Assembly (NCBI RefSeq): GCF_020089865.1
Contig: NZ_JAIRBM010000012.1
Location: 1 to 64,000 of the forward strand
Length of the DNA stretch: 64,000 nucleotides
Origin: Microvirga puerhi
GTDB lineage: Bacteria; Pseudomonadota; Alphaproteobacteria; Rhizobiales; Beijerinckiaceae
Reading direction: 5' to 3'
How positions within the stretch are numbered: the stretch's first letter is position 1; every line of letters starts with the position of its first letter. The position numbers and the translations under genes are program-made. Shown piece by piece: positions 36,246 to 64,000 of the stretch. Under the pieces are notes generated by a model, which made no database searches, had not been told where the DNA came from, and saw nothing but the letters and a program-made list of their open reading frames with translations.

Positions 36246-36256
36246 AGGAATACTGC

Positions 36257-37504: not shown

Positions 37505-37518
37505 ACCGTCTGGACGGT
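37505..37518. promoter_or_regulatory. TetR-type operator between efflux operon and its regulator
   Basis: ACCGTC-TG-GACGGT is a perfect inverted repeat in the divergent intergenic region, inside TATACCGTCTGGACGGTTTA, a layout typical of TetR regulators of RND pumps. It is 20 bases before the regulator start and about 115 before the adaptor start. Confidence 0.75.
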
Positions 37519-37537
37519 TTAGTTGCAAGAGATGTGA

Positions 37538-38116
37538 ATGTTCGCTTGTATCCGGGGCCGGAAGAGCTCCCGAGAAAAGATTCTTGATGCAGCCGCCGAA
37601 CTGGTCGGCGAAATCGGAGCCGGGCGTCTGACCCTGGATGCCGTCGCCGAAAGAGCAGGGCTCAGCAAAGGCGGGCTTCTTTACAACTTTCCGAGCAAAG
37701 AATCACTCCTCCAAGCGATGATTCAGCGGCTGGTCGATGAAGTGACGTCCGAAAAGGAAGCGCTGCGGGCCCAGCTGACGCCGAGCCGCAACCTCGAAGC
37801 GAAGCTCTGTACGGCCGCGCTGATCAAGATGTGCGGCGGCGGTGAGATGAAGGAAATCGCCACCGGGATGCTCGCGGCATCCTCGGAAAATCCACGCCTC
37901 CTCGAGCCTGTCCGCAACGTTGTAAGGGAAACGCTCGAGAAGCTGAAATCCAATTCGGACGATGTCGATGCCAGCCTTCTCGCCTGGCTCGCGGCCGAAG
38001 GCCTCCGCAGCATGGAAATGCATGACATCAGCCCCTTTTCGGACAGCGACCGGGAGCGGGTCGTCACGGCCATCAACCGGCTGCTCGACAGAGGCATCGC
38101 CGAGCAGGGGGCCTGA
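37538..38116 (+). CDS. TetR-family regulator of the RND efflux operon
   Basis: Repressor of 192 residues with the N-terminal helix-turn-helix (REKILDAAAELVGEIGAGRLTLDAVAERAGLSKGGLLYNFPSKESLL in separate helices at residues 12-58) and a helical ligand domain rich in Glu and Leu. It is divergent from the pump operon and the palindrome between them is the likely operator. Its C-terminal domain resembles the group in which the helix-turn-helix is followed by a short, acidic effector domain. Effector unknown. It converges with the CoA-transferase gene, the stops being 11 bases apart. Confidence 0.92.
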   Translation: MFACIRGRKSSREKILDAAAELVGEIGAGRLTLDAVAERAGLSKGGLLYNFPSKESLLQAMIQRLVDEVTSEKEALRAQLTPSRNLEAKLCTAALIKMCGGGEMKEIATGMLAASSENPRLLEPVRNVVRETLEKLKSNSDDVDASLLAWLAAEGLRSMEMHDISPFSDSDRERVVTAINRLLDRGIAEQGA

Positions 38117-46941: not shown

Positions 46942-46949
46942 AGGCTGAG

Positions 46950-49592
46950 TTGCGCGCGCTTCCTCTTACTCTGCTCCTTGGGCTCAGCGTCTTCGTCGCG
47001 GATTCCGCGTCGGCTCAGACAGCTCCCTTCAGCATGACGCCGGAAAAGCCGGGCTCGACATCCCCGTCTAATCCCAGCAATAGTCCTCAACGAGGCGGGG
47101 GAGTACAAACCACCTCGCCACCTGTTTCTCCTTCTCCTGTGCCCTTCGACATGGGGACGCAGCCGATGGGACCGGCCACTCCTTCGGTGGCGCGCCCTAT
47201 CCCGTCTGGACCGGCGTCCGGTCCTGCGCCCTCAGCCCCCTTCAACATGGCACCGCAAGCGACACGGCCAGCAGCGCCAAATGTCGCTCCCGTCCCTTCT
47301 GTCGGCACAAACGGCCCTGCCCGCGGTACGGACCCTCGGGCGCAGAGCGCAGCGGCAGCGACATTGCGCGGAACAGCCCGGCCTCTTCTGCCGTTTGAGA
47401 CGATCCGATTCGAGGGAGAGACCGACGCGCGGAGCTGGGCATTCTTCCTGACCCAGGACGAGGCTGCGAGTGGATCGAGCCTATCGGTGGGATATCAGAA
47501 CGCCGTCGTCGTCATGCCCGAGGCGTCCAACCTCAGGGTCGTGATCAATGGCGAAACGGTGACCGAAATCCCGATCGTTTCATCACAAGGGGTCAAGCGG
47601 GTCGTCGTTCCCGTCCGTGCCGGCCTTCTGAGGACCGGACAAAACATCATCCACATGGAGGCGATACAGAGGCACCGCACGGATTGTACGGTCAAAGCGA
47701 CATACGAGCTTTGGACGGAAGTCGATGCGGCCTCGACAAGTCTCATGTTCACTGAAGGCGCGCCACGCACGCTCCGCAGCTTGGAAGATCTCCCTGCCAT
47801 CGGATTCGACAATGCCGGCGTCACGACCATCCGTGTCGTCGCTCCGCGCATCTACCGCCCGGAGATTCGCGACCGCCTGCTCCGCCTGGTGCAGCTCGTT
47901 GCCCTGCGGGGTCGCTATGCGCATCCGGTCATCCAAGTACTGGAGACGGATCCCGGCCCCTCCCCAGTCGGAACGCTGAAGGTGGTCATGGGGATCGCCA
48001 GTGAATTGCGCGGCTTCACGCCGGCAGTTCCGGATGCGGCCTCGATCCAGCCGCTCGCCCTGATGATGCAGGATCCCGGCTCGACTGCACCTTATCTTCT
48101 TGTATCGGGACCGACCTGGAACGATCTCGACAATGCGATCAACATCGTCGGCGGCCAAGGCCTCAACGGCGCGGCAAGCCGCGGGACGGTCGACACGGCT
48201 TCATGGCTATGGCCCGAGACGCCGACAGTTCTCGGCGGACGCGCAATCCGCTTTTCCGATCTCGGAATTCCGACACAGGAATTTTCGGGTCGGCGCCTTC
48301 GGGCTCGCTTCGCGATCAATCTCCCCTCCGACTTCTACGCGACCGACTATGGGGAAGCGACCCTTTATCTCGACGCTGCCCATACCTCCGCAGTCCAGCC
48401 GGGAAGCCACGTCGACATCTATGTGAACGACCGGATCAGCGCGACGATGACGATCACGTCGCGTGGCAACATCTTCCGGCGCCATCCCATCCGCATCCCG
48501 ATGCGGAACTTCAAGCCCGGCATCAATCACATCTCTTTCGAGACGATTCTCCTCACTGCCGCAGACGATCGCTGCGTTCCGGGCGAGACGCTGTCGGACA
48601 CGAGCCGTTTCGCGCTGTTCGACACGACATCCTTCTATATTCCAACTTATGGACGCATCGGCCGGACGCCCGATCTTTCGACCTTAAGCACCGGCAGCTT
48701 TCCATATGGCGATGCGCCGGTTGCCGTTGTTCTCTCGCGACAGGATGCGCCAAACTATTCAGCCGCCGGGACCTTGCTCGCGCGAATGGCGCGCGATGGG
48801 AATGCGCCCGTCCGAGGCTATTTCGTCAATGCCGCGAGCGCCGCGGACATCTCCGTGCTCCATGTCGGTGCTGTCGATCAACTGCCCTCAGGCCTCCTCG
48901 GGCGAGTCAACCTCTCGGACAATCTGCGCTCTGTTTGGCAATCGAGTCCCTCTCCCAATTGGTCCTACCCGGCGGGATCACGCTCCGAAACCACGGCGAG
49001 GCCATCGACGAAGGCGCCCACCGCCATGCCGATCGGGCGGGCTGCCGCCGAGACGGCGGAGCAACCGTCGACGGACGAGATTCGCCGCCGCTGGTCGGAG
49101 ACGCTGCAAAAGCGCGGCGTTCTGCAGCAAAGCCTCGAATCCTTTACGACCTGGATAGAGAACACTTTCAATCTCTCCGTTGCGAAACTCACCTACGAAG
49201 ACAAGAAGGACCGGCCCTACGAGCCTCCGCAGCGCTCCTCGCTCCTTCTGGCACAGAGTTTGTCCGAAGGCTCTGGCACACGCACCCTGGTGACGGCGCG
49301 GACGGAGGAGGCACTTGCGGAGGAAATGGCCCGCCTGACGGCGCCCATGATCTGGTCGCAGATGTCAGGTCGGGCCGCTTCCCTCGATTCCATCGAGAAC
49401 AAGCTCGAGATCGAGCCCGTCGACAGCTTCACCTTCGTTCAGACTCAGCCTCTCTCGTTCACCAACGTCCGGCTCGTGGCCGCCAACTGGATGTCGATCA
49501 ACATCCTGCAATATGCCGTTCTTCTTGTTGCCTGCTGCATACTTCTCGGGATCTCGACCTATCTGTTGCTAGGGCGATTGGGCCGCAACTGA
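46950..49592 (+). CDS. bcsB: Cellulose synthase regulatory/periplasmic subunit BcsB
   Basis: Periplasmic partner of BcsA, 880 residues. It starts at a TTG with GAGG five bases upstream and eight bases after the bcsA stop, giving the signal peptide RALPLTLLLGLSVFVADSASA; the frame upstream lies inside bcsA. A Pro/Ser/Ala-rich segment (residues 25-135) is unusually long. The BcsB core follows (LPFETIRFEGETDARSWAFF, then FARINLPSDFY-like ARFAINLPSDFYATDYGEA), and a C-terminal membrane anchor (ILQYAVLLVACCILLGISTYLLL) ends it. The carbohydrate-binding halves appear intact. Confidence 0.93.
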   Translation: MRALPLTLLLGLSVFVADSASAQTAPFSMTPEKPGSTSPSNPSNSPQRGGGVQTTSPPVSPSPVPFDMGTQPMGPATPSVARPIPSGPASGPAPSAPFNMAPQATRPAAPNVAPVPSVGTNGPARGTDPRAQSAAAATLRGTARPLLPFETIRFEGETDARSWAFFLTQDEAASGSSLSVGYQNAVVVMPEASNLRVVINGETVTEIPIVSSQGVKRVVVPVRAGLLRTGQNIIHMEAIQRHRTDCTVKATYELWTEVDAASTSLMFTEGAPRTLRSLEDLPAIGFDNAGVTTIRVVAPRIYRPEIRDRLLRLVQLVALRGRYAHPVIQVLETDPGPSPVGTLKVVMGIASELRGFTPAVPDAASIQPLALMMQDPGSTAPYLLVSGPTWNDLDNAINIVGGQGLNGAASRGTVDTASWLWPETPTVLGGRAIRFSDLGIPTQEFSGRRLRARFAINLPSDFYATDYGEATLYLDAAHTSAVQPGSHVDIYVNDRISATMTITSRGNIFRRHPIRIPMRNFKPGINHISFETILLTAADDRCVPGETLSDTSRFALFDTTSFYIPTYGRIGRTPDLSTLSTGSFPYGDAPVAVVLSRQDAPNYSAAGTLLARMARDGNAPVRGYFVNAASAADISVLHVGAVDQLPSGLLGRVNLSDNLRSVWQSSPSPNWSYPAGSRSETTARPSTKAPTAMPIGRAAAETAEQPSTDEIRRRWSETLQKRGVLQQSLESFTTWIENTFNLSVAKLTYEDKKDRPYEPPQRSSLLLAQSLSEGSGTRTLVTARTEEALAEEMARLTAPMIWSQMSGRAASLDSIENKLEIEPVDSFTFVQTQPLSFTNVRLVAANWMSINILQYAVLLVACCILLGISTYLLLGRLGRN

Positions 49593-49602: not shown

Positions 49603-50688
49603 ATGAAGATCATTTCGAGATATCTGTCCCGTTCCGCGATCTTCATGCTGTTCATGGTTGGGTTGATGGCGCCGGCCGGGAGCGCGCCCTTGGAACAGCT
49701 CAAGATTACCGGTTTCGTTTCGGCAGCGGACTGGGAGGCTTATCGTACGCGCTTCATCGACGACAGCGGACGCGTGATCGACAACGCGAACGGCAATATC
49801 AGCCACAGCGAGGGACAGGGCTACGGTCTCCTGCTCGCTTTCGCGGCGAGCGACCGCCTGACATTCGAGAAGATCTGGACCTTCACCTACACCGAGTTTC
49901 TGATTCGCGACGACGGGCTCGCCGTCTGGAAATGGGATCCCAGCGCGACGCCCCATGTCACCGATCGCAACAATGCGACGGACGGAGACATCCTGATCGC
50001 CTACGCTCTGGCGAAAGCCGGGGTGGGCTGGCAGGATCAGCGTTACACACAGGCCGCTCAGAAGCTCGCGAAGGCCATCGGCAAGGCCGCCATCGTCAAG
50101 AATTCCGGGTTTCCCTTCCTGTTACCTGGTGTGAAGGGCTTCACGCAGACCGATCGCCCCGATGGCCCGGTCGTCAACCTTTCCTACTGGATTTTCGAAG
50201 CATTCCCGGTGCTTGCCACCTTGGCTCCAGAATATGATTGGAGCGCTGTATGGCGCGAAGGCATCGTGCTGCTTCAGCAGGCCACGGCAAGCCGGACCCA
50301 TCTCCCAGCCGACTGGATGTCCATCCGCAATCGTACGCAGCCACGCACGGCCGAGGGATTTGACCCTGAGTTTGGTTACAACTCGTTAAGGATACCTCTT
50401 TACTTGTTGAGGGCGGGGATGGCCGATATGGAGTGGCTGAAGACGCTCAAGCAGCGATGGATCACGGACCAGGAAGGCGTTGCCGTCGTCAATGTCGTGA
50501 CCGGGGAAATTCGGGAGCGTCTGACGGATCAGGGCTATATGGCTCTGCCTGCCGCGCTCGCGTGTGCGCTCGATGGAACCAAGGTTCCGGAGAGCCTGAA
50601 GGTGTTCGAGCCGCAATTCTATTATCCGGCCAGTCTCTATCTGCTGTCCCTGTCGTTGATCGGTGAAAAGTATCCGCAATGCCTTTGA
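49603..50688 (+). CDS. bcsZ: Periplasmic endoglucanase BcsZ (GH8 cellulase)
   Basis: Cellulase of glycoside hydrolase family 8, 361 residues, which trims stray glucan during cellulose synthesis. A signal peptide covers residues 1-28. The catalytic acid is Glu70 in ISHSEGQGYG and the second acidic residue lies in RNNATDGDILIAYAL. It is a standard member of bcs operons and lies ten bases after bcsB. Its stop overlaps the TPR-protein start by ten bases, so the two are translationally coupled. Confidence 0.95.
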   Translation: MKIISRYLSRSAIFMLFMVGLMAPAGSAPLEQLKITGFVSAADWEAYRTRFIDDSGRVIDNANGNISHSEGQGYGLLLAFAASDRLTFEKIWTFTYTEFLIRDDGLAVWKWDPSATPHVTDRNNATDGDILIAYALAKAGVGWQDQRYTQAAQKLAKAIGKAAIVKNSGFPFLLPGVKGFTQTDRPDGPVVNLSYWIFEAFPVLATLAPEYDWSAVWREGIVLLQQATASRTHLPADWMSIRNRTQPRTAEGFDPEFGYNSLRIPLYLLRAGMADMEWLKTLKQRWITDQEGVAVVNVVTGEIRERLTDQGYMALPAALACALDGTKVPESLKVFEPQFYYPASLYLLSLSLIGEKYPQCL

Positions 50689-52853
50689 CTCGCGGCATGA
50701 TGGCATTCTTGATTGTCGGCCTTGGCTTCGCGGCCTTGGCCCAGCAATCAGGCTCGCCTCCGTCGCCGAAATCAGATCAGACCGGCCCGTCGCCCTCACC
50801 CCCTCCGTCTCCCGCCCCGGCGCGCCCGCAGGTCGACGAATCGGCTCTGCGCTATTTCGCGTCCCAAGGAGACACGCGCCGGGTAGATGCGGAAATCGCC
50901 CGCCTGCGAGCACTCTATCCCGATTGGACGCCCCCGGCTGACCTCTCCCAGCTGGTCGGTGGCGGCGCTGGCGGCCCGGTCAGCGACCCGGAGGCCGATC
51001 GGCTCTGGGGCCTCTATACCGAGAATCGTTTCAGCGAAGCGAGAGCCGCTATCGCGGCCCGCCAGTCCGCCGATCCGCAATGGAAGCCACCACCGGATCT
51101 CGTTGCGGCTCTCGACGTGTCGGAAGCGCGCCGAAGGCTCGTGAATGCGTCCGACAACAATCAGTGGCGCACGGTCCTGTCGATTGCGACCGAGACCCCG
51201 GCGCTTCTCACCTGCGCGAACGTCGATTCCCTATGGCGTGTCGCCGAAGCCTTCGCCAAGACGAACCAAACGAACAGGGCACGGGACGTTTATACCTATC
51301 TGCTGACGAACTGCGCCAATCCTGCCGAGCGTCTCGGCACCCTTCAGAAAGCGCTGACGCTCCTCGACGGGCAGCAAGTGACGGATCTCCTGCGTTTCGA
51401 GCGAAAGGGAGGAGACAATCCGGACGATTTCAGCGCGATCAGGGATGAACTTGCGAGGAGACGCGTAGAAAAGGCCTCGACCGACGCCAAGCTGACCGTT
51501 TCGGCCGACGATCTTGCGGTCGTCGAGCGCTTAGCCGAGGGGGAAACGGAGCCCGGCAATGCCCTTCTGCTGGGCTACTACAACTATCACCGCAAGAATC
51601 CAGAAAAGGCGCTGACGTGGTTTAAGACGGCCCTGGATCGCAATGGCGGCCCCAAGGCCGCCGAAGGCTATGCGCTCGCATTGCGCGAGCTCAACCGCTT
51701 CGTGGATGCTGAGGCTTTCGCCTATGAATGGCGCGACAAGGCCCCCGAGAATATGCAGGTCTATCTCGATGTCGCTACGGCGCTGTTGAGCCAGGATCCA
51801 CCGCTCAAGCTCAGTCCAAACGTCGTTGCCCGCATCATCCCGGCGGTTACCAAAGCCCGTTTCGTTAATGGTGCACAGGCGCTCGGCTGGTACTCCTACA
51901 ACACGGACCAATTCCGGACGGCGCGCGAATGGTTCGAGGTCGCCCTCAGCTGGAAGGCCGATGACGAACCATCCGCTTATGGCATTGCTCTGGCCAGCCA
52001 GCGCTTGAATGATCGGTCGCGTTTCAATGCCATCACGGCTCAATGGCGATCGCGCTCTCAGCGCATCGCGGACCTTGCCGATGGCATCAGTCGCGATCGC
52101 GGGACCCCTGTGACAACGCAGCCGATACCGCAACCGAACCCGGTTCCTGCGGCTCCCGCCCGCCCTGCCCTGACCGCGACCGAGCCGCCGGCGGTCCCCG
52201 AGTCTTCTCCGGAGCGCTCACGGCGTGTCGAAGAATTCCGGGTCGCAGCTTATGATAGGGCTGTCCTCACCCAGGAGCGTCAGCTACAGGGCAGCCGACG
52301 GGTCGTGCGGAGCGGAGGCAGCGCGCGCCGCGCCTGCACGGCGACCCGCGATCCCAGCGGTCTTGCTCCCAATGCTGCCCTCACCCTTGGCTGGTGCCTG
52401 ATGGAATTGAACCGGCCCATGGAGGCGGTCGCCGCCTTCGATCAAGCAATGCGGCTCGGCAGCCCGACCGTTCGCGAGGAAGCGGCCTACGGCAAATCGC
52501 TGGCCTATCTCCGCAAGGATCTGACAGGAGAGGCCGCCGTTGCCGCTGCCCAGGCGCCACAGACGGCAACGCGCAGGACGGAGCTCAGCGCTGCCATCCT
52601 GGCACAGCGGGCTTTGGCTGCGTATCGGGATGGCCGCTGGGTCGATGTCATCCTGGCTCTCGGCGAGCGGGCGCGCATCGTTCCCGAGCAGAACGACCTC
52701 ATGCTTCTGCGAGGCTGGTCCTATTTCAAGCTCGGCCGTTTGAATGATGCGGAAAAGATCTTCACCGCCGTTCATCGCACCGGCTTCTCGGAAGAAGCGA
52801 GTGTCGGTCTCAACGCAATCAGGGAGATCACCGGCCAGCTTCATCAATACTGA
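50679..52853 (+). CDS. TPR-rich cellulose-operon protein without a BcsC porin domain
   Basis: 724-residue exported protein. Residues 1-22 form a signal peptide (MMAFLIVGLGFAALA), followed by a Pro/Ser linker and then tetratricopeptide-like helix pairs (GNALLLGYYNYHRKNPEKALTWF, EDAAYG-like EEAAYGKSLAYLRKDLTGEAA, LLRGWSYFKLGRLNDAEKIF). It takes the place of BcsC in the operon and shares its TPR region, but the C-terminal beta-barrel expected of BcsC is missing, as the protein ends straight after the last TPR. It probably scaffolds periplasmic cellulose transport, with an outer-membrane channel supplied by another gene. Named by context; the residues are poorly conserved. Confidence 0.75.
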   Translation: MPLTRGMMAFLIVGLGFAALAQQSGSPPSPKSDQTGPSPSPPPSPAPARPQVDESALRYFASQGDTRRVDAEIARLRALYPDWTPPADLSQLVGGGAGGPVSDPEADRLWGLYTENRFSEARAAIAARQSADPQWKPPPDLVAALDVSEARRRLVNASDNNQWRTVLSIATETPALLTCANVDSLWRVAEAFAKTNQTNRARDVYTYLLTNCANPAERLGTLQKALTLLDGQQVTDLLRFERKGGDNPDDFSAIRDELARRRVEKASTDAKLTVSADDLAVVERLAEGETEPGNALLLGYYNYHRKNPEKALTWFKTALDRNGGPKAAEGYALALRELNRFVDAEAFAYEWRDKAPENMQVYLDVATALLSQDPPLKLSPNVVARIIPAVTKARFVNGAQALGWYSYNTDQFRTAREWFEVALSWKADDEPSAYGIALASQRLNDRSRFNAITAQWRSRSQRIADLADGISRDRGTPVTTQPIPQPNPVPAAPARPALTATEPPAVPESSPERSRRVEEFRVAAYDRAVLTQERQLQGSRRVVRSGGSARRACTATRDPSGLAPNAALTLGWCLMELNRPMEAVAAFDQAMRLGSPTVREEAAYGKSLAYLRKDLTGEAAVAAAQAPQTATRRTELSAAILAQRALAAYRDGRWVDVILALGERARIVPEQNDLMLLRGWSYFKLGRLNDAEKIFTAVHRTGFSEEASVGLNAIREITGQLHQY

Positions 52854-52951: not shown

Positions 52952-53458
52952 ATGGCAGGCTTTCAGATCATCCTCTTTGACGTCAGCGGCACGGAATGTG
53001 CGTTGCGGCGAGATTCAGTGCGGGAACTCCTGCCTCTGCCCCGCCTCTGGCGTCCACCCAGCCTTCCTCGGCCCGTTGCCGGTTTCTTCAACCTGAGCGG
53101 AACGGCGGTTCCTGTCATCCAGCTGGATATCCTGTTCAGCTTGGATCGGCTCCAAGCCGATGCCGAGGATGGCCTCTATCACCATCTCATCCTGCTTGAT
53201 GGTCTTGCTCAGGATCAGCCGGTCGCCCTGCTGGTCGATCGGGTCCAGGATATCGTCGAGATTGACGCCTCCAAGCTCTGCCCGGTCCGGGACCAGGGCA
53301 GCTTGAATGGCTGCGTCGAAGCCGAGCTCGACTTTGGGCCCAGGCTTGTCCACCTGCTCTCCCCTTCCCGCATCTTGCTCGTCGAGGAGCAGCAGGCCCT
53401 TGCCGCGTTGAACCGCCAGGCTCAGGACCGCCTTGGCGCTTGGTCGGTTACGGCCTGA
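52952..53458 (+). CDS. cheW: CheW-like coupling protein (WspB position)
   Basis: A 168-residue CheW-domain protein that would link a chemoreceptor to the CheA kinase. CheW landmarks are FQIILFDVSGTECALRRDSVREL and the second beta-barrel half GFFNLSGTAVPVIQLD. It lies 98 bases after the cellulose TPR gene on the same strand; no terminator is visible between them. Its stop and the CheR start share one base (TGATG). Slightly longer than classical CheW, with a Gln/Ala tail. Confidence 0.88.
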   Translation: MAGFQIILFDVSGTECALRRDSVRELLPLPRLWRPPSLPRPVAGFFNLSGTAVPVIQLDILFSLDRLQADAEDGLYHHLILLDGLAQDQPVALLVDRVQDIVEIDASKLCPVRDQGSLNGCVEAELDFGPRLVHLLSPSRILLVEEQQALAALNRQAQDRLGAWSVTA

Positions 53459-54906
53459 TGGCCGAGAAATTCGCCTCTCGCTTCGAATTCGACGCAGACT
53501 TTTCCCGTCTCAAGGCGCTTGTCATCGAGCGGACTGGGCATTTCTATTATCAGGATAAGGACGATCTGCTTTGGGAGCGGGTTCGCAAGCGTTTGCACGC
53601 GACCGGCCATTCCGATACCGCCCGCTATCTAGAGCGCCTCAACGATCCCGTCGCCGGACCGGAGGAATGGGCCCGCCTCGAGGCGGACATTACAATCGGC
53701 GAGACCTTTTTCTTCCGCTATGCCGAGCAGTTCACGGCCCTGCGAGAAAGGATCCTGCCCGACATCATCGCACGCCGATCGGCGGATCGCCGCCTGCGTG
53801 TTTGGAGTGCCGGCTGCGCCACAGGTGCAGAGCCCTACTCGGTCGCCATTCTTCTCAAACAGCTCCTTGGTGATGAATTGGAAAGCTGGCGCATCAGCAT
53901 CGTCGGCACCGACATCAACGAGACGTTCCTGAAAACGGCCCGCCACGCTGTCTTCGGCCGCTGGGCCTTGCGCGCTCTCTCCGTCGAGGACAGATCTGCC
54001 TTCTTTGACCCCTTGGAAGGCAAGGACCAATGGCGGTTGAAAAAGGAATACCGCGCGCCGGTGCGCTTCGAGCGGCACAATCTGCTGACCCTCCTCGAAG
54101 GGACCTCGCCACTGCAATTTACTGAGTTCGACTTGGTCCTGTGCCGGAATGTCCTGATCTATTTTCATCCCGCTACGATGATCCGCATTGTCGAAGCGCT
54201 TGGAGAAACCCTGCGCCAGGAGGGCTGGCTGCTCCTAGGACATGCGGAACCCAACCCAGCCTTCGCCAGCTTCCTGCGCGTGATTAATCTGCCGGGGACT
54301 GTTGCCTATCGCCGCGCCTCTACGGAGGATACAGGACCTGCAGCACAAACCGAGGTTCCTCCGCAACGAATTCCGTTGCTGCTCCCCCCTCCGCAACGCA
54401 CGAGGGAGCGCCCTTTTCCGGAATCGCGCGCCAGAAAGCCTGTCTCACGCGCCCTTGCGCCAACTTCTCTGCCCGTTGTTCTCCCTCACGAGCCAGATTC
54501 CCTGCTAGCGGAAGTCCGGGCCCTGGCCGATGCAGGGCAATTCAGCGCAGCCGAAGATCTTTGCCGAAGAGCGCTTCTGGCTCAGCCGCTGAATGCGGTT
54601 CTCCATTACTACGAGGGCCTGATCTCCCACGCGATCGATAATCCCATCCGCGCCGAGAGGGCCTTTCGCCGAAGCATCTATCTCGATAAGAGCTTTGCCA
54701 TGGCTCATTACCATCTCGGACTTCTGCTTATCGCGAACGGGCGGCTCGGAGCTGGACGGCGCTCCCTCGCCAATGCGGCACGCATTGCAGCCGCCGTGCC
54801 GGCGAGCACCGTGCTCGACGAGGCCGACGGACTCACGGCAAAGGAGCTTCGGGGCCTCGTGCGCCTTCACCTCCAGGCCATAACTCCGGCCCTTCTGGAG
54901 CAGTGA
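53458..54906 (+). CDS. cheR: CheR methyltransferase with C-terminal TPR domain (WspC-like)
   Basis: Receptor methyltransferase using S-adenosylmethionine, 482 residues. The N-terminal CheR helical domain precedes the methyltransferase fold with VWSAGCATGAEPYS and LVLCRNVLIYFH. A Pro-rich linker leads to a C-terminal TPR region (residues about 365-460, AEDLCRRALLAQPLNAVLHYYEGL and AERAFRRSIYLDKSFAMAHYHLGLLLIANGR in part). CheR-TPR fusions are characteristic of Wsp-type alternative chemosensory systems (WspC). Two CheW genes flank it, as in wspB-wspC-wspD. Confidence 0.92.
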   Translation: MAEKFASRFEFDADFSRLKALVIERTGHFYYQDKDDLLWERVRKRLHATGHSDTARYLERLNDPVAGPEEWARLEADITIGETFFFRYAEQFTALRERILPDIIARRSADRRLRVWSAGCATGAEPYSVAILLKQLLGDELESWRISIVGTDINETFLKTARHAVFGRWALRALSVEDRSAFFDPLEGKDQWRLKKEYRAPVRFERHNLLTLLEGTSPLQFTEFDLVLCRNVLIYFHPATMIRIVEALGETLRQEGWLLLGHAEPNPAFASFLRVINLPGTVAYRRASTEDTGPAAQTEVPPQRIPLLLPPPQRTRERPFPESRARKPVSRALAPTSLPVVLPHEPDSLLAEVRALADAGQFSAAEDLCRRALLAQPLNAVLHYYEGLISHAIDNPIRAERAFRRSIYLDKSFAMAHYHLGLLLIANGRLGAGRRSLANAARIAAAVPASTVLDEADGLTAKELRGLVRLHLQAITPALLEQ

Positions 54907-54907
54907 C

Positions 54908-55504
54908 ATGGCAAAGACCTTACGACGCAAGTTGAGACAGATCAGTCGCGCCGGCTCGCTTTCTGCCGAGGAGAGAACCCAGCGCATTCTGGACGAGAGA
55001 ACGCAGCGCCTGGCATCGCGCCATGCGATGCAATCTCCTCTCGCGGGAGAGACCACAAGCGTTCTTATCTGCGACACGGGTCGGGAAAGCTATGGAATTC
55101 CCGTTCATGCCATAGCCGAAGTGCTTTCATTCCGCGAATGCCTCCCATTGCCTGAAGGGCCCCCGGCGCTGATCGGGCTGCTCGGCTGGAATGGTCAGCT
55201 CATCAGCGTCATCGACCTGGCATCGGCCCTGGGAACTGCGCCGGCCACGGAAAAAAGCGACGGACACCTCGTGCTCCTGCGCCGATCCGCTCCGAAGATT
55301 GCTTTGAGAGTCGATCGCGCCAAGGGCGTTGAAACAGTCACTCCTATCGCTCCCGAGGAAACGAACAGCTTCCGAAAGGAGGCTATTCTCGGCTATGCCG
55401 AAATATCATCGGACGTTGCCGATCAGGAAAAAATCTTGTCTCTTCTGGATCTAAACCGCCTTCTCCATCCTTTCCTGCCCTCTCTTCCCGCTTCCGGAGC
55501 ATAA
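54908..55504 (+). CDS. cheW: Second CheW-like coupling protein (WspD position)
   Basis: 198-residue CheW protein. An N-terminal helical extension of about 45 residues, rich in Arg and Gln ([19 protein letters not shown]), precedes the CheW domain ([44 protein letters not shown]). The extension recalls WspD-type proteins. It starts one base after the CheR stop and ends one base before the receptor's GTG, so all are coupled. Confidence 0.88.
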
Positions 55505-55505
55505 C

Positions 55506-57182
55506 GTGACGATCTCGATTGCGAATCGCATCCTTCTCGGCTTCGCCTTCATTGTCGCGCTGATGGTCGGCCTTGGAATCTATACGATCAACCAGCTCGA
55601 CGATGTCCGGACTTCCACGGAGACGATCGTTGCGCGTGACCTCGCCCTTATGCGGCAGGTCGAGGCGATCGGCGCCCAGCAGAACGACATGCGAGCCCTG
55701 CGGGAAGACGTCCTGTCGCGCTTCCTCTTACGCTCCTTGGGCCAGCAGCAGAGTTCGTATGAGAGCCTGATCGCAGAATGGGCTCAACGTGCCAGCGCGA
55801 CGGAGAATTCTCTCTCGCAAGCGATTGCAACCGTAAACGGTTTCCAGGCCCAGTCCGTGACCTCTCAACGATCGGACGCTTGGCGCCGCATCTCTCAGCT
55901 GCTCACGTCAGCCAGCGCGTCCTTGCGTCAGCTACGAACCGATTCGGAACGGCAGTTCTCCGCCATTCAGAACAATGACCTCGCAGCCGTCATGGCGACC
56001 CAGACCTCTCTCAACGCCAATCGCGGCGAGTGGATCCGCACTCTGGACGAGGTGCGCGGCATCTTCGGCGAGGCAGTTGCACTCGGCCAGCGGCGTGTTG
56101 CAGACGTCTACGAGCAAAGCAGAACCTCCATCGTACTCGCCCTGGCAGGCGTCGCACTCCTGAGCATCCTCATCACCTACGCCCTCCGTGCATCGATCGC
56201 CAATCCGCTGAACACCTTCATGCAGTTCGTCGAGCGTGTCGGGCGAGGAGAACTCGCGGGGCAGACCGCAGTCACCGGCAAAGACGAGATCGGGCGCCTT
56301 GGCGCGACGCTCAACGAGATGGTCGGTGGCCTGCGTCAGCTGGCCAAACAAAGCCGGGAGGCAACCGAGAACCTCAATGCCGCTGCTGCCGAAATTCGTG
56401 CCTCGACCCAGGAGCAGGCCGCCAGCGTCGAGGAACAGCTCGCGGCCGTGCAGGAAACTGCGGCAACAGTCGATGAGATCACTCATGCCGGCGCCCAAAT
56501 CGGCAAGCGAGCGCAGGAGGTCATCGCTTCCGCCCAGGCAACGGCACAGACCAGCGTCGCCGGATTGCAGGCTGTCGACGATACTGCGCTGGCCATGGAT
56601 GCCATCCGTGAACAAGCGGAGGCTGTCGCCGAGAATATCGTCGCACTCAGCGAAAAAACCCAGGCGGTGGGTGAGATCATCTCCTCCGTCAATGACATTT
56701 CCGAACGAACCCATCTCTTGGCTCTCAACGCCGCCATCGAGGCGGCGGCTGCTGGCGAGAATGGGCGCAGCTTCGCAGTCGTGGCTTCCGAAATGAAGGT
56801 CTTGGCCGATCAGGCCAAGGAAGCGACGAACCAAGTGCGCTCCATCCTCGGCGACATTCAGCGCGGCATCAACTCGTCGGTAATGTTGACGGAAGAAGCC
56901 GTAAAGCGCGTGACATCCGGGAAGGAGCGCACCGACACGACACAGGAGACGATCACGGAGATTTCCAACCGCGTTCAGGAAAGCGTGCAAACCTTCCAGC
57001 AGATCGTGGCCTCCACCAATCAGCAGCAGCTCGGCATTGAGCAGGTGATGGGTGCGCTTCAGAACATCCGACAGGCAAGTCAGCAGACGGCGGCCGGTAC
57101 GCGCCAGCTCGATATGGCGGCGGCGAACCTGTCCGATCTGTCGCTGCAGCTTCTCACGCTTGTCGAACGATATCGGCTATAA
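55506..57182 (+). CDS. Methyl-accepting chemotaxis protein (WspA-like receptor)
   Basis: Membrane chemoreceptor of 558 residues with GTG start. TM1 is at residues 10-29 and TM2 at about 208-227, framing a roughly 180-residue periplasmic helical domain rich in Gln and Ala. HAMP covers about 228-280. The cytoplasmic signalling tip ([34 protein letters not shown] in successive segments near 390-425) and [19 protein letters not shown] match receptors of the WspA class. No C-terminal CheR-tethering pentapeptide. A surface-contact or envelope cue is expected by analogy; ligand unknown. Confidence 0.92.
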
Positions 57183-57209
57183 GCATCGAGGATCTTGGAA
57201 GCGCACCCT

Positions 57210-59471
57210 GTGACGGATATCCGCAAACAATTGCTTGCCGCGTTCGACGTCGAACACCGAGAGCATCTGCAGGCGATCCGGAAGGCACTCGACAGCGCCG
57301 ATCGTGGCGCTCCGTTCGAGATGGCCGATATTTTTCGTCGTGCGCACTCGCTGAAGGGAGCAGCCAGGGCAGTCGACCTTCCCGCAGTCGAGGAGATTGC
57401 GCATCAGCTCGAGACTCTGTTCTCTCACATTCTTGAGGGCAGCCAAGCGCTTGATCGAAATATTGCCGCATCAGTGCGTGCGAGTCTCGACGCCATCGAA
57501 GATCTTGTCACCGAGGCCTCGCATTCCTCCGACTCTGCGCCCTCCCGGGTCGTCACGCGTGATCCGGCACGAGGAGGGGAGCAAGAAGGAAAAACACCCC
57601 GGTCGAGCGAAACTCCGGCGACCGGAAGGGCGATTGCGACGGAGAAAGCGGGGCAGACGTCCGATACGGCTGGAACCTATCTTCGTGTCGCCGCCGAGCA
57701 GATCGAAGAACTCTCCAGCTCTATGCATCAGCTCCTGTCCGAATTGCAGACAGACGAAGCGATGGCGGAAGCGCTCCGCCAGATCGAGCTCGATGCGCGT
57801 GGTCTCAGACGCAGCTGGGACGTTCTCCACTCTCAAATGATATTGACCATGGCCGGAGCCTCAAGACCTTCGGGGAGCGGTGTAGAGCGACCCCGCAATC
57901 TCTCGTCGCGTCTGAGGGATTTCGACCAGGATTTGGGACGTCTGTTCCGCAAACTGTCAGCCCTGTCCCGTAGCCATAAACTGTCGACCTGGACGACCGA
58001 CCAGGCTGCTCGGCAGGTTCGGGAAAGCATTGAGCGCGTATCCCTCGTTTCAGCTGAAACTGTCTTCGGCACATTCGGTCATATGGTCCGTGAGATTGCG
58101 CGTGAAACGGGCCGGGACGTTCATGTGCGAATCTCTGGGCTCGATATTCAGGCCGACCGCCGCGTGCTCCAAGCGCTCAAGGATCCGGTCATGCATCTTC
58201 TCCGCAATGCGGTCAGCCACGGAGCGGAAGATGCGGCCGAGCGCATCGGCAAGGGCAAGTCTGAACGGGCTGAAGTCATTTTGGAGCTGGCATCGCATGG
58301 AGGACGCCTCGCTGTCAGCGTCCGTGATGACGGACGGGGACCAGATCTTGCCCGGATCGAGCAGGTCGCCATCGAGCGAGGATTGCTGCAGCCTCGCCGC
58401 GCCGGCGATCCGGCCCCGTTGATGGATCAGTTGCTGTCGCTGGTTTTTTCGCCCGGCTTCTCGACGGCCGATTCTGTCGATCGTCTCTCCGGGCGCGGCA
58501 TGGGGCTGTCGGTCGTGGCTGAAGCCGTCCGGAAGCTGCAAGGCTCGGTCCTCCTGCGGCCGCGCTTTCCCTGGGGCACGGAAGCGATCCTATCGGTTCC
58601 TTTTACTGCCGCCCGCCAGCCGCTGCTGCTCGTCGAGGCGGAGGGGCGAATCTTCGGATTGCCGACCTACGGGGTGGAGCGCTTGTTCCGTCTGAACGTT
58701 CAGTCGCTGGAAAGCGTTCAGGGACGTCCTACCGTGCGGATCGATGTGCGGGGTCAGGACGTTATTGTTCCTGTTATCGCCTTTGCTGCCCTCGCAGGAT
58801 CCTCCAATGCACCTCTTCCGATCGAAGCCGGCTACGCGAAAGCGGTACTCATTCGACACGGCTCTCGCTATTGCGCGCTCGCCGTCAATGCCTTTCACGA
58901 CGTCCGCACGATGCTGGTAAACGATGTGCAGGCCGTCGGCCTCGGCGATACGGTCTCCGGTACCGTACTTCTCGAAGATGAAATGCCGGCCCTGGTTCTC
59001 AGCCCTGAACTCCTCATCGAACACTGGATTCGCAATGAAAGCCGTTTGGCGGCCGGCGGCCTTGGTCTGGCCGGATGGACATCGGCAGCAACTTCGGAAC
59101 CCGGCGCCACAGTTCTCGTCGTCGACGACTCCATCACGACCCGGACCCTCGAGAAAAGCATCCTCGAGGCACAGGGCTATCGCGTTCTGCTCAGCGTCGA
59201 TGGAATCGATGCACTCAATGCGTTGAGATCGGGCGATGCCATGGTCGATCTCGTCGTCGCGGACGTGGAGATGCCGCGCATGGATGGGTTCGGTCTTCTC
59301 CAGGCCATCAAGACCGATCCACGCCTGTCGGCGATACCCGTCATTCTGATGACCTCACGAGCAGACCCTGCCGATGTTCGTCGAGGCTTGGACCTTGGGG
59401 CGAGCGCTTACATCACCAAGCAGAAATTCGACCAGCGCGAGCTTCTGGCAACCATAGGGCAACTCTTATGA
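57210..59471 (+). CDS. cheA: Hybrid chemotaxis histidine kinase CheA-REC (WspE-like)
   Basis: 753-residue kinase. The Hpt domain carries the phospho-His in RRAHSLKGAAR (residue 46), then a linker, the ATPase region (LLRNAVSHGAEDA, DDGRGPD, GRGMGLSVV), a CheW-like receptor-coupling domain (about 460-600), and a C-terminal receiver with phospho-Asp at residue 685 (VADVEMPRMDG). A P2 CheY-binding domain is not obvious. A GTG at 57210 with GGAAG upstream is preferred over a TTG five codons earlier. The stop overlaps the CheB start by ATGA. CheA-REC fusions are typical of WspE and FrzE. Confidence 0.92.
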   Translation: MTDIRKQLLAAFDVEHREHLQAIRKALDSADRGAPFEMADIFRRAHSLKGAARAVDLPAVEEIAHQLETLFSHILEGSQALDRNIAASVRASLDAIEDLVTEASHSSDSAPSRVVTRDPARGGEQEGKTPRSSETPATGRAIATEKAGQTSDTAGTYLRVAAEQIEELSSSMHQLLSELQTDEAMAEALRQIELDARGLRRSWDVLHSQMILTMAGASRPSGSGVERPRNLSSRLRDFDQDLGRLFRKLSALSRSHKLSTWTTDQAARQVRESIERVSLVSAETVFGTFGHMVREIARETGRDVHVRISGLDIQADRRVLQALKDPVMHLLRNAVSHGAEDAAERIGKGKSERAEVILELASHGGRLAVSVRDDGRGPDLARIEQVAIERGLLQPRRAGDPAPLMDQLLSLVFSPGFSTADSVDRLSGRGMGLSVVAEAVRKLQGSVLLRPRFPWGTEAILSVPFTAARQPLLLVEAEGRIFGLPTYGVERLFRLNVQSLESVQGRPTVRIDVRGQDVIVPVIAFAALAGSSNAPLPIEAGYAKAVLIRHGSRYCALAVNAFHDVRTMLVNDVQAVGLGDTVSGTVLLEDEMPALVLSPELLIEHWIRNESRLAAGGLGLAGWTSAATSEPGATVLVVDDSITTRTLEKSILEAQGYRVLLSVDGIDALNALRSGDAMVDLVVADVEMPRMDGFGLLQAIKTDPRLSAIPVILMTSRADPADVRRGLDLGASAYITKQKFDQRELLATIGQLL

Positions 59472-60544
59472 CGTCCTCTCCGCAATCGCGCGTCCGCGTG
59501 ATGGTCGTCGAGGACTCATTGGTCATCCGCCAACTCCTCGCTCACATCATTGCGCGGGACCCGCGCCTGATCCTCGCCGCTGCCGTCGGATCAGCCGAGG
59601 AGGCTCTGCAGGAAATCGGACGTGTCCAGCCCGACGTGATCTCCATGGACATTCGCCTTCCCGGCATGGATGGCCTTGAAGCGACGCGCCGGATCATGTC
59701 CGAGCATCCCACACCCATCGTCGTCATTGCCGGCAGCGTCGAAGACTCCGCTCTTCAAATTTCCATGAATGCCCTGCGGGCGGGTGCCTTGTCAGTGGTC
59801 GAAAAACCCGTCGGCGTCACAAGCGCAGGATATGATGGTATTGCGGAGACGATCTGCACCCAGCTCTATATCATGAGTCAGGTGCCTGTGGTGCGGCGGC
59901 GCTCCTTCGCCTGGAGACCGGCGTTTGCCGCGCGCCCGTCTTGGACGGAAGAGGCCCGAGACAACAATGTTCGGCCTACGGTTCTCGGCATAGCGGCCTC
60001 GACAGGAGGCCCCCCTGCCCTTGCTAAGATCTTGGGCGCCTTTCCAGAAGATTTTCCTCTTCCCATTCTCCTGGTCCAGCACATGGGCGCGCCGTTCATG
60101 GAAGGGTTCGCATCCTGGTTGGACGGGTTGATCGCCCTTGAAGCTCGCCTGGCCCGAGATCAGGAGATTCCTCTCGCCGGAAAAGTTTACGTAGCGCCCG
60201 GCGATCGTCACCTGCTCCTGTCGCCGGCAGGCACCCTGCGCCTCAGCGCCGCGCCCCCTGTCGGCGGACAACGGCCCTCTGCCACTTCGATGTTCGAATC
60301 CATCGCCGAAACCGTTGGAGCGCGAGGCATGGGTATTTTACTGACTGGCATGGGCGAGGATGGAGCAAAGGGTTTGACGGATCTTCGCAAGGCTGGAGGC
60401 TATACTGTTGCCGAAGATGAAAGCACGGCCGTCGTTTATGGTATGCCTGCGGCGGCGGTCCGCATGGGCGGCGCGCGAGTCAGCCTCCCCCTCGACCTGA
60501 TCGCCCCCCGTGTCTTGCGACTCGCCAAGGGAGAAAGCGAATGA
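59468..60544 (+). CDS. cheB: Chemoreceptor methylesterase CheB (WspF-like)
   Basis: Protein-glutamate methylesterase/deamidase of 358 residues. The N-terminal receiver has the phospho-Asp at residue 61 (SMDIRLPGMDG), and the C-terminal esterase has the Ser178-His205-Asp298 triad in AASTGGP, VQHMG and GMGEDG. It removes methyl groups added by the CheR-TPR protein. Overlaps both neighbours by four bases. In the Wsp system, loss of the counterpart WspF locks signalling on; the same might be expected here. Confidence 0.94.
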   Translation: MTSSPQSRVRVMVVEDSLVIRQLLAHIIARDPRLILAAAVGSAEEALQEIGRVQPDVISMDIRLPGMDGLEATRRIMSEHPTPIVVIAGSVEDSALQISMNALRAGALSVVEKPVGVTSAGYDGIAETICTQLYIMSQVPVVRRRSFAWRPAFAARPSWTEEARDNNVRPTVLGIAASTGGPPALAKILGAFPEDFPLPILLVQHMGAPFMEGFASWLDGLIALEARLARDQEIPLAGKVYVAPGDRHLLLSPAGTLRLSAAPPVGGQRPSATSMFESIAETVGARGMGILLTGMGEDGAKGLTDLRKAGGYTVAEDESTAVVYGMPAAAVRMGGARVSLPLDLIAPRVLRLAKGESE

Positions 60545-62274
60545 GCGACGGCCCCGCATCTCCCACCGCCCGCATCCTTCTTGTCGAAGACTCCGAAACG
60601 CAGGCACTCCAGTTGCGGCACATGCTGCAGACCAACGGTTTTGCGGTCGATTGGCAAGCAACCGCGGAGGCTGCTCTCGACACCCTGAATACGGGCCTCC
60701 CCGATCTTGTCATCGCCGATTACCATCTTCCCGGCATGAACGGCGACGAGCTGTCGCGCCAGATGCGACTGAATGTCCGGACCCGCGCGATTCCCGTGAT
60801 CATGCTGACGGAGGAGCGTGCCGTCGAGCGGCAAGGCCTGGAAAGCGGCGCCGATGCCTATATCTCCAAGGCGGCGGAGCAGGATCTGATCATCCTCCGA
60901 ATCAGGGCACTCCTGCGTCGACGCGCGGCCCCCGACATCAAGGAAGGTCGGGAGGGGCCCAGCTTCAGTACGTTTCGGCGGGCACGCCTCATGGTCGTGG
61001 ATGACAGTGCGACCCGACGGGCTCATCTCCAGGACCTCCTGAACCGGGAGGGCTATGAAGTCACGCTCGCGAGCGCCTCAGCGGAAGCGCTGCGGCTTGT
61101 ATCCAGGCCTGGTGCCTCGTGGGACTGCATCCTTGTCAACATCCTCAGCTCGAGCTTCGACGGGATCGAGCTTTGTCGTCAATTGAATACCTATCGTGGC
61201 CTTGCTCCCTTGCCGGGCATGGAACTCCCGAGCTTTTCCATCGTCGGTCTCGGCAATGAGGATGGAGGCGATACGTTGGCTCGCGCCTTTGCCGTAGGCG
61301 CTGACGATGTGGTCCCGGCGACTGCGGAGCCAGATGCCATGCGGGTGCGTATCCGGGCCCTAGTCCGCCGAAAGCTTCTGCAGGATGAGAACTGGCGCAT
61401 AGAAGCCGAGCTGCGCGAGCGGGAGCTTGCAGTCGAACGGGCAAAAGCCGAAGCTGCCTCGGCCGAAGCACGGGCCTCCCTCGCAGGGGCTCTGGCAAAG
61501 GCCAATTTCGAGCTCGAACAGGCCAACCATCGCCTCCGGGACACCCAGGCCAAGCTCGTCCAGGCCGCAAAGATGGCGTCTCTCGGCGAGCTCGTGGCGG
61601 GCATCGCACACGAGATCAACAATCCTCTTGCCTTCATCATGGCCCATCAGGGCACCGTCCAGCGTCTGCTCAACGATATCGCGGCGAAAGTCCCGTCCGA
61701 ACTCGGGCTGGAACGCTCTCTCGCCAAGACGCTCGAGCGGGTCGGCGCCATGAAGTTGGGACTTGGACGCATTCAGGAACTCGTCCTCAATCTGCGACGT
61801 TTTTCGCGCCTGGATGAGGGCGGCTTCCAAACCGTCAACGTCCGCGAATCCATCGAAACAGTTCTGGCGCTTCTCGGCCACAGGCTCGGGACCCGGATCG
61901 ATATTCGACGTCATTACGGGGGCGCGCCGGATCTGTATTGTTCTCCCGCCCTCCTCAACCAGGTCGTGATGAACATCATCGGCAATGCCGCAGACGCCAT
62001 CAGTGGGACCGGCGCCATTGCTATTGAAACGTCGAGCGACGAGACAACCTATACCATTCAAATTAGCGATACGGGGCCGGGAATCCCGCCCGAGATGCGG
62101 GAACGCATCTTCGAACCCTTTTTCACGACCAAACCGGTAGGTTCTGGAACTGGACTTGGACTTGCCATCGCCTATAGCGTTGTCGAGGCTCACAGGGGAA
62201 CAATTGCAGTGGACGAAGGCCCGCTGGGCGGCGCTCGCTTCACGGTCAAAATCCCAAGGCAGAACGTTGAATGA
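60541..62274 (+). CDS. Soluble hybrid histidine kinase: REC-REC-coiled coil-kinase
   Basis: 577-residue kinase without membrane segments. Receiver one (11-125) has phospho-Asp60 in [12 protein letters not shown]. Receiver two (148-275) has Asn200 where the phospho-Asp should be ([13 protein letters not shown]) and lacks the conserved Lys near the end (VVPATA in place of KP), so it is probably not phosphorylated. A coiled coil (283-345, Ala/Glu-rich) joins to the HisKA box, His357 in [11 protein letters not shown], and an ATPase domain ([17 protein letters not shown]). It occupies the place of WspR in the Wsp gene order, but has no GGDEF domain. Likely input: phosphotransfer from the CheA-REC. 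Confidence 0.9.
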
Positions 62275-64000
62275 CCGCGCCGAACAAGAACGCTTCTAAG
62301 CTTGGCACGATTCTGGTCGTCGACGACGAGCCGGACATTATCGTCGCGCTCGAGGATCTGTTTGAAAACGATTATCGGGTGCTCACGTCGTCCTCGCCCA
62401 TGAAGGCTCTGGACATTCTTCGCGATGAGCCGGATATCGCAGTGATCGTCTCCGATCAGCGCATGGCGGAGATGCAAGGAGACGAGTTTCTCGCCAGAGC
62501 GCGCGTACACAGCGACGCGGAAACCATTCTCCTGACCGGCTACGCAGATCTGAAAGCTGTCATCGGCGCAGTGAACAAGGGCCGGATTACGGCCTATGCG
62601 CCCAAACCCTGGGAACCGGCGGCGCTCTCGGCCATGGTGGCATCCGCCTTTGAGCGTCACCGCCTGACGCGTGAACTGAATACGGAGCGCGCGCTGCTTC
62701 GCGGCCTCATGGAGAGCATCGGCGACCTCATATCCTTCAAGGATCGCGAAGGTCGCTTCGTCCGCCTGAACACCAGCAAAGCGTCTAGCCTGAAGTTGAG
62801 TGTCGAGGCCTGCCTGGGCCGCAGAGAGCAAGACCTCGTTCCAAAAGAGCAGGTTGCCACCATCGTGCAGGCGGAACGCCGCGCCATCGAAGCGCGCGGT
62901 CCCATCGAAGAGATCGAGGAACGGCACGGACCGGATGGAAACCTGCAGTGGTTCTTCGTCACTCAAATTCCCATTCTCGATCCCACCGGCAATGTGACGG
63001 CCATCGCGACTATCGAGCGTGACATCACGGAACGCAAGCTGATGGAAATGCGCCTGCGTCAAGCGGACAAGATGCAGGCTCTCGGAACGCTGGCAGGCGG
63101 CGTCGCTCACGATTTCAACAATCTCTTGATGGCGGTCCTTGGCAGCCTCGATCTCGCTTCACGAAGAGCGCCGGACGATCCGCGTCTGAACAAGCTTCTG
63201 AAGAATGCCACGTACGCGGCGGAGCGCGGCGCTTCGTTGACGCAGCGGCTGCTGAGCTTCAGCCGACAACGGGACCTTCGGCTGCAAACTGTGAACGTCA
63301 ATCGCGTTATTGCAGATATGAACGACCTGCTTCTGCGCACACTCGGTGGGGTGATCCGTGTCGAGAAGAAGCTCGCCGACGATCTCTGGATGGCAATGGT
63401 CGATCCGGATCAGCTCGAGCTGGCGGTGCTGAACCTCTGCATCAATGCTCGCGATGCGATGTCCGAGAACGGCATTCTGACGCTGTCGACGCGCAACCAA
63501 ACCGTTGCAGCGGGACAGGTCTCCGACCTTGACGCCGGCGAATATGTCGTAGTCTCCGTTACAGACACCGGTGCCGGTATCCCTCCCGACATCCTGAGCA
63601 GGGTGCTTGAGCCCTTCTTCACGACCAAGGAAGTCGGCAAAGGCACCGGGCTCGGCCTTCCGATGGCCTATGGCCTTGCCCGTCAATCCGGAGGGACCGT
63701 CACGATCGACAGTACGATCGGAAGGGGAACGATCGTTGAACTTTACCTGTCCCGTACGGCCTCGGACCAACACAATGCAGATCCGAAAGAGGCGACGATC
63801 ACTCCTCTAACTCAGCGCGTTCGCATCCTGCTTGTCGATGACGATCCAGATGTCAGGGCTGTCACTGCCGCTTACCTGAACGAAATGGGCCATCGCGTTG
63901 TTGAGGCGTCAGACGGAGCTGCCGGCCTCAACATCCTCCGTGCGGACGAGCAGATCGACCTCCTGATTGCCGACTTCGCAATGCCAGGCATGACGGGACT
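62271..64000 (+). CDS. Soluble hybrid histidine kinase: REC-PAS-kinase-REC (runs off window)
   Basis: At least 576 residues; the 3' end is outside the window. N-terminal receiver with phospho-Asp62 ([13 protein letters not shown]), a PAS domain (about 141-255, ending RDITERK), HisKA with His280 ([13 protein letters not shown]), ATPase motifs ([28 protein letters not shown]), and a second receiver that begins near residue 515 ([11 protein letters not shown]) with the acceptor in IADFAMPGM. The start is fixed by ATGA overlap with the upstream kinase. No membrane segments. The first receiver type (RpfG/HupR-like) often signals in regulatory cascades. It may pass the signal to an effector encoded beyond the window. 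Confidence 0.9.

Follow-up and report, generated by a model that had tools for sequence, protein, structure and literature searches.

To our knowledge, the flow of phosphate has been measured for few non-flagellar chemosensory systems, and an operon in Microvirga puerhi raises the question of where a CheA sends its phosphate when two soluble hybrid kinases follow it and no cyclase stands at the locus. The operon lies at the end of the stretch analysed here (the window: bases 1–64000 of the 142,516-base contig NZ_JAIRBM010000012.1, in a genome of 5.17 Mb). A preliminary description of this DNA had likened it to the Wsp surface-sensing system, with the two kinases, here named H1 (REC-REC-HK) and H2 (REC-PAS-HK-REC), in the place of a diguanylate cyclase. 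Our comparison with other genomes makes it likely that the operon encodes a chemosensory relay of the kind known as Che3/CheS3 in Rhodospirillum centenum, in which CheA would phosphorylate the first receiver of H1 (REC1), H1 would phosphorylate H2, and H2 an unlinked partner.

Open reading frames and Pfam confirmed the gene list and domain make-up given in the preliminary description, with all eight genes on the + strand:

52952..53458, +, first cheW (cheW1; Pfam CheW, 1.1e-17)
53464..54906, +, cheR with a C-terminal TPR-like part (Pfam CheR, 1.5e-44; TPR match below threshold)
54908..55504, +, second cheW (Pfam CheW, 2e-20)
55506..57182, +, mcp, receptor with an N-terminal sensor part (weak, sub-threshold 4HB_MCP_1), HAMP and MCPsignal (Pfam)
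57195..59471 (alternative start 57210), +, cheA-REC, Hpt-HATPase-CheW-REC (Pfam, alignment, tree)
59468..60544, +, cheB (Pfam CheB, 2.8e-54, and REC)
60541..62274, +, H1, REC1 (canonical, Asp60)-REC2 (degenerate)-HisKA (His357)-HATPase (Pfam, alignment, loci with versus without CheA)
60718..60720, +, codon of H1 Asp60, the proposed acceptor from CheA and counterpart of CheS3 Asp54 (alignment, invariant)
62271..64000, running off the window, +, H2, REC-PAS-HisKA-HATPase-REC (Pfam)

The true end of H2 is at contig position 64190, 190 bases beyond the window, and dipeptide ABC transporter genes stand downstream of it. Coupling is as tight as had been described (gaps of 0–27 bases or 4-base overlaps): the gaps are 5, 1, 1 and 12 bases (27 with the alternative cheA start), followed by three 4-base overlaps. 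His51 in the Hpt domain of CheA and Asp690 in its receiver are invariant across 14 aligned homologues. REC1 of H1 carries an intact quintet of receiver residues (Glu16, Asp17, Asp60, Thr90 and Lys110), and REC2 has Asn in place of Asp and no Lys. That the locus has no diguanylate cyclase, as had been claimed, agrees with the absence of any GGDEF match from the whole 142,516-base contig, the genome's 13 matches lying on other contigs; nor was a cyclic di-GMP enzyme seen in the approximately 15.7 kb past H2, where translated open reading frames were inspected by eye and no domain search was made.

The closest studied counterpart is the Che3 cluster of R. centenum, which controls cyst formation. 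According to excerpts of He et al. (2013; PMC3868531), the kinase CheS3 (REC-REC-PAS-HWE) carries Asp54 in REC1, Ala191 at the corresponding position of REC2, and His453, and the acceptor in the CheA3 receiver is Asp663; transfers were shown from CheA3 to CheS3 REC1 and from CheS3 to CheY3, and the half-life of phosphorylated CheA3 was 31 min with an intact receiver versus 80 min without. CheS3 also occurs in a paper on a Caulobacter kinase network (PMC6530869). A search of 79 Azospirillaceae genomes, 58 of them with a match at E 1e-100, led to a locus (L322) in the order CheY3, CheW, CheR, CheW, MCP, CheA3, CheB3, CheS3, in which CheS3 Asp54, Ala191 and His453 and CheA3 Asp663 are all present at their published numbers, and which is in all likelihood che3 of R. 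centenum itself. The window CheA is 40% identical to this CheA3 (759 residues; 62% in REC) versus 31% to Novosphingobium WspE, its CheB 51% to CheB3 versus 37% to that of Novosphingobium Wsp, and its receptor 48% versus 27% (379 and 424 residues). The second CheW is the exception, with Novosphingobium WspD (24%) as its best match and not CheW3b (29%, shorter), both matches being weak. REC1 of H1 shares 52% identity with CheS3 REC1; among receivers other than the REC1 of a kinase of this type, the nearest reaches 37%. Over the whole proteins H1 and CheS3 align at 38% across 334 residues, excluding the kinase half, so that on this alignment the kinase module is exchanged between the CheS3 type and H1, from HWE to HisKA.

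The two clusters share the gene order CheW, CheR, CheW, MCP, CheA, CheB (W-R-W-M-A-B), a CheA with a fused receiver, and a kinase after CheB in which a homologous, canonical REC1 precedes a degenerate REC2. They differ in that CheS3 is a PAS-HWE kinase (HWE by Pfam in L322) whereas H1 of the window is a HisKA kinase without PAS, in that CheY3 is missing in the window and H2 in R. centenum, and in the receptor, where the alignment spans 68% of the window protein. No CheY3-like match was found in the 1.5 kb upstream of the window cheW1; such a gene precedes cheW in 5 of 75 loci checked, and H2 is present in none of the five. Judged by sequence, the operon is a variant of the Che3/CheS3-type cyst-control system, nearer to che3 than to Wsp.

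The phylogenetic placement of CheA that the preliminary description had called for was made with a quick tree of 39 rows carrying one support value (Shimodaira–Hasegawa-like approximate likelihood ratio test, SH-aLRT), R. centenum CheA3 not being among the rows. The window CheA falls in a 20-row clade (SH-aLRT 100) together with Azospirillum, Indioceanicola and Paramagnetospirillum. It lies outside a separate six-row clade of Wsp-type CheAs (SH-aLRT 100), in which REC-GGDEF was confirmed by Pfam at three loci (Mesorhizobium L161, Novosphingobium L286 and Cupriavidus L159) and a further locus (L158) shows none directly after CheB. It lies likewise outside the group formed by nine presumed flagellar CheAs (SH-aLRT 99), which are further CheAs of the examined genomes. 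The CheAs of Nitrospirillum, Aromatoleum (L123) and a Wallbacteria metagenome-assembled genome (L109) are not members of the 20-row clade, and their own positions have weak support. The likeness to Wsp thus stands as to composition, with the same core components, two CheWs flanking CheR-TPR, CheA-REC and CheB, but not as to descent or membership: Wsp has its receptor first and REC-GGDEF last, its CheAs form their own clade, and the window has no cyclase at the locus. The receptor-first order M-W-R-W-A-B is found in L161 and L286 and W-R-W-M-A-B in the window; the earlier idea that the receptor gene had moved from first to fourth place is not needed, R. centenum che3 having W-R-W-M-A-B as well. 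Gene order, the output gene and the CheA tree all led us to reject membership of Wsp.

Which receiver faces CheA is suggested by bacteria that have lost it. Some Acetobacteraceae retain H1-H2 without che genes; two of them, Acidomonas (L099) and Acetobacter cerevisiae (L115), have the pair ahead of hslV-hslU, where Komagataeibacter (L097) has it too. We searched 249 Acetobacteraceae genomes, of which 65 had H1 at E 1e-90, added 63 new loci, and read the REC1 quintet in 151 H1 loci including the window. Genomes lacking CheA beside H1 were searched whole for CheA elsewhere. Two loci were counted as CheA-present on this ground: L266, with an intact REC1 and no adjoining che genes, has its cognate CheA on another contig, and L245 lies at a contig end in a genome that has one. 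L116, whose genome matches the other CheA kind only, was counted as absent. Two loci with broken H1 frames (L236, L285) were excluded, as were the duplicates L091 and L094 from the tree; Azospirillum L155 and L156 were not counted as H1 loci. The quintet is intact in all 115 loci with a cognate CheA (107 distinct sequences) and in 2 of the 34 readable CheA-less loci, the other 32 being broken; two more loci have broken frames. Asp17 is retained in 2 of these 34, Asp60 in 13 and Lys110 in 18. The remainder of the pair is kept in CheA-less loci: H1 His357 in 35 of 36, the quintet of the H2 N-terminal receiver in 35 of 35 readable, the H2 His in 36 of 36, and the Asp of the H2 C-terminal receiver in all 29 having that domain. 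Divergence relative to the H1 kinase, with CheA present versus absent, is 0.81 versus 1.15 for REC1, 0.94 versus 0.81 for the H2 N-terminal receiver and 1.72 versus 1.14 for REC2 (overlapping pairs).

On an 81-row tree built without REC1, the CheA state changes three times and the REC1 state five times; on average the quintet tracks CheA in 2.9 of 3 independent pairs, and in none does it run opposite. Acetobacteraceae have lost the che genes on about three occasions, with H1-H2 remaining. A Fisher p of 1.5e-30 for the association of REC1 with CheA was set aside, as the rows are related; the pattern is strong when rows are counted and modest when independent events are. Because REC1 decays without CheA while the H1 kinase and the H2 receiver stay intact, REC1 of H1 is probably the CheA-facing site. 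Separately, in Acetobacter L111 (8889–9986), and similarly in L113 and L118, a diverged CheB-like gene stands ahead of H1 and no CheA was found beside it; the L111 gene has REC and CheB_methylest by Pfam, and the genes of this group are 27–30% identical to CheB.

The relay we propose would begin with a receptor-CheW-CheA array that, tuned by CheR and CheB, controls the autophosphorylation of CheA. Phosphorylated CheA would then donate to Asp60 in REC1 of H1, a soluble kinase, and alter the activity of that kinase, a step we favour because it was shown in the R. centenum homologue and because REC1 decays where CheA is lost; the earlier suggestion that CheA-REC feeds multi-domain kinases is supported. 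The receiver fused to CheA probably drains phosphate, since phosphorylated CheA3 is shorter-lived with an intact receiver in the excerpts cited above. H1 would next phosphorylate the N-terminal receiver of H2, which would stand in for a stand-alone CheY3; we infer this because the five loci with a CheY3-like gene all lack H2, and because H1 and H2 are kept together, intact, without CheA. H2, a PAS kinase mostly with a C-terminal receiver of its own, would relay to an unlinked partner, and that receiver is not a universal exit because it is missing in 14 of 111 CheA-present rows. The output is probably a non-motility function, and cellulose is a possible candidate in Microvirga because the cellulose (bcs) operon adjoins the che operon there.

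The gene order of the window recurs in other genera. In a relatives scan at least 553 relatives were confirmed and the best 80 kept, with synteny checks on top of the scan; the locus counts below include some cases of one genome under two labels. At E 1e-60, H1 was matched once per genome in 27 of the 36 other members of the genus and in 1 of the 24 genomes from other families (60 relatives in all), and it was present in 14 of 396 other genomes of an order-wide draw, which makes it a specific marker. All eight genes in the order W-R-W-M-A-B-H1-H2 were detected in at least 59 other loci, and an ordered part of the operon with a true CheA in at least 18 further ones (20 listed minus L110 and L114, whose "CheA" match is H1; the "CheB" match of L109 falls inside H1). 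Because the order recurs in so many loci, the arrangement is not due to chance. Carriers include Microvirga, Methylobacterium/Methylorubrum, Acidisoma, Roseomonas, Komagataeibacter, a Caulobacteraceae metagenome-assembled genome, Sphingomonas and Paramagnetospirillum. Of the 63 further Acetobacteraceae loci, 34 have CheA beside H1, and in every one of these the detected genes keep the same order. Aromatoleum (L123, L125) and the Wallbacteria genome (L109), which are not Alphaproteobacteria, have more loosely related clusters in which kinases resembling H1 and H2 come after CheA. Nitrospirillum (L100, 9959–21506) has the same genes with both kinases ahead of the che core, and REC2 of its H1 carries Asp, Asp and Lys where a canonical receiver has them. 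The sensor part of the receptor varies by genus, being PilJ-like in Paramagnetospirillum (L102, 5009–6643, by Pfam) and different by eye in Nitrospirillum (L100, 16553–18169), and the output part is conserved. No conserved downstream effector gene was seen by eye in the gene calls of some loci.

Other modules occur behind the same che core. An Azospirillum plasmid cluster (L155, L156, L290) shares the W-R-W-M-A-B order and the 20-row CheA clade but differs in its output, which consists of a protein of two receivers lacking a kinase part and of a hybrid kinase encoded separately; in L155 (14371–15138) and L290 (13849–14649) this protein follows the core and has a degenerate first receiver and a Pfam-positive second one. 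The L155 protein is annotated as a transcription factor, and no DNA-binding domain was found in it by Pfam. Clusters of Indioceanicola and other Azospirillaceae (L289, L323, L324) share W-R-W-M-A-B followed by one kinase that starts with such a REC1, and differ in a CheY3-like gene in front, a PAS-HWE kinase (by Pfam in L289, by length and first residues only in L323 and L324) and the lack of H2. Fusions of about 960–990 residues, with receivers, HisKA, HATPase, receiver and Hpt, replace H1 or stand alone in L325 (12101–15064), L326 (12442–15396) and L291 (11980–14871), as read by Pfam in L325 and L291 and by length and start only in L326.

The region upstream of the che operon in the window holds the neighbouring cellulose operon and a promoter-like motif:

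43655..44611, +, bcsN, neighbour (Pfam CBP_BcsN, 8e-59)
44731..46941, +, bcsA with a PilZ domain, neighbour (Pfam)
46938..49592 (start approximate), +, bcsB, neighbour (Pfam BcsB, 2e-52)
49603..50688, +, bcsZ, GH8, neighbour (Pfam)
50679..52853, +, bcsK-like TPR gene, neighbour (Pfam TPR; name from the type IIIb bcs operon in an excerpt of PMC6559018)
52878..52905, +, promoter-like pair TTGCA-N17-CATATA ahead of cheW1 (aligned bcsK-cheW1 gaps of 23 Microvirga loci and the window)

The distance from bcsK to cheW1 is 95 or 98 bp in the window, depending on the start codon, and 82–246 bp in 23 of the 26 Microvirga loci with H1 that were examined (one further match, G032, is outside the count). 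Nine genus members have no H1; six of them have an orthologous BcsA (78–85%), and in all six the genes directly after bcsK are those of the dipeptide transporter, which in the window come after H2, while the other three have no BcsA match at E 1e-100. In G036 the same bcsK-transporter junction is found and the che operon lies elsewhere; G023 (M. roseola) has the che operon with the window's upstream neighbours, no bcs genes there, and a distant BcsA (49%) elsewhere; G021 has the che operon and no BcsA match at E 1e-100. In 12 loci from the order's other genera, the approximately 8.5–9.5 kb preceding the operon yielded no bcs gene, and neither did the 2–3 kb preceding it in most named loci from other genera. 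The che and bcs operons are neighbours gained or lost separately, and an obligate che-cellulose unit was rejected, each occurring alone in Microvirga. A strict TTGCA-N17-CATATA-type pattern precedes cheW1 in 21 of the 32 Microvirga loci and in none of the 35 others, and random stretches of 170 bases contain it in 5 cases out of 1340; the pair is present in the bcs-less L071, by eye in L056, and not evident in L054. It appears to be a promoter-like element in Microvirga with and without bcs. In seven Microvirga genomes (L340–L346) the dipeptide transporter genes come directly after bcsK, so that the approximately 11-kb che operon is polymorphic for presence or absence at this site. Further upstream, 33153–38116 of the window reads as RND-type efflux genes and a divergent TetR-like regulator (from open reading frames), a neighbourhood found also in M. 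roseola (L071).

Several observations count against the relay as proposed. The phosphotransfer steps in the window system are predictions; the evidence for transfer from H1 to H2 consists of adjacency, co-retention and CheY3 absence, and H1 differs from CheS3 in kinase family and in having no PAS domain. The acceptor Asp60 persists in those 13 of 34 CheA-less loci, and taken alone it tracks CheA in 1.0 of 3 independent pairs on average, the remainder showing no difference. Four of the 32 broken loci differ by Asp17Glu alone, a conservative change, and two CheA-less loci have an intact quintet. With three CheA losses on the tree, a sign test on the quintet gives p 0.25, significance being out of reach. 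Finally, Azospirillum L155 has CheA, yet the first of its two receivers has no Asp and no kinase is fused to them. A strict rule that REC1 is intact exactly when CheA is present was rejected on the two exceptions, the Azospirillum case and the persistence of Asp60. One might then see in the decay of REC1 a general relaxation of H1 in smaller genomes and not an effect of CheA loss as such: the CheA-less rows come from genomes of 1.9–4.3 Mb, many below 3.5 Mb, and the losses are few, with Asp60 often persisting. In those same proteins, however, the kinase retains its His and its N and G boxes, no H2 site is lost, and REC1 divergence rises (0.81 to 1.15) while that of the H2 N-terminal receiver falls (0.94 to 0.81), which renders relaxation improbable.

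Weighed on the same evidence, a rearranged Wsp surface-sensing system with its diguanylate cyclase elsewhere, in which phosphate from CheA would end in cyclic di-GMP and hence cellulose, is very improbable. The six core components are those of Wsp, the adjoining BcsA carries a PilZ domain and there are 13 GGDEF matches elsewhere in the genome, but the window CheA stands outside the Wsp clade, two alphaproteobacterial Wsp loci (L161, L286) retain M-W-R-W-A-B-REC-GGDEF, and the decay of H1 REC1 upon CheA loss makes H1 the likelier partner. A link to cellulose by another route, with che and cellulose operons as one functional unit in Microvirga and the relay directly controlling synthesis, would fit the short distance between bcsK and cheW1 in 23 of 26 loci; we consider it rather unlikely, given the six Microvirga genomes with bcsNABZK and no che, the separation of the two in G036, G023 and G021, the promoter-like motif ahead of cheW1, and the failure to find bcs upstream of the operon in the regions examined in other genera. 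It is hardly credible that the operon is a flagellar chemotaxis system whose two kinases merely adjust sensitivity. Flagellins are encoded in the genome, but so is another CheA, with two CheW parts, on contig C33; neither CheY nor flagellar genes were seen at the locus, and the window CheA is in a clade separate from the presumed flagellar ones. The system is therefore probably non-flagellar, as the preliminary description had supposed. In the excerpt of PMC10782961, those alphaproteobacterial CheAs that have been studied and carry two CheW domains are placed in flagellar class F5. The second CheA of the genome (contig C33, 5.5 kb, L002), with two CheW matches, resembles this type.

In the Che3/CheS3-type relay that we prefer, we lean towards the CheA-facing REC1 as the fixed element, behind which output modules would have been swapped: HWE plus CheY, HisKA plus H2, HisKA-REC-Hpt fusions, and bare tandem receivers. 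In vinegar bacteria and their relatives the che half would have been lost and REC1 would have decayed, leaving a CheA-free H1-H2 relay. A published account of the operon was not found by title or abstract start, in a literature coverage that mostly leaves aside subscription journals. The transfer demonstrated from CheA3 to CheS3 may extend to a family spread over many alphaproteobacteria, in which the lineages that have lost CheA point to a single receiver as its probable target. The family also offers genera in which the kinase pair can be compared with and without dependence on CheA.

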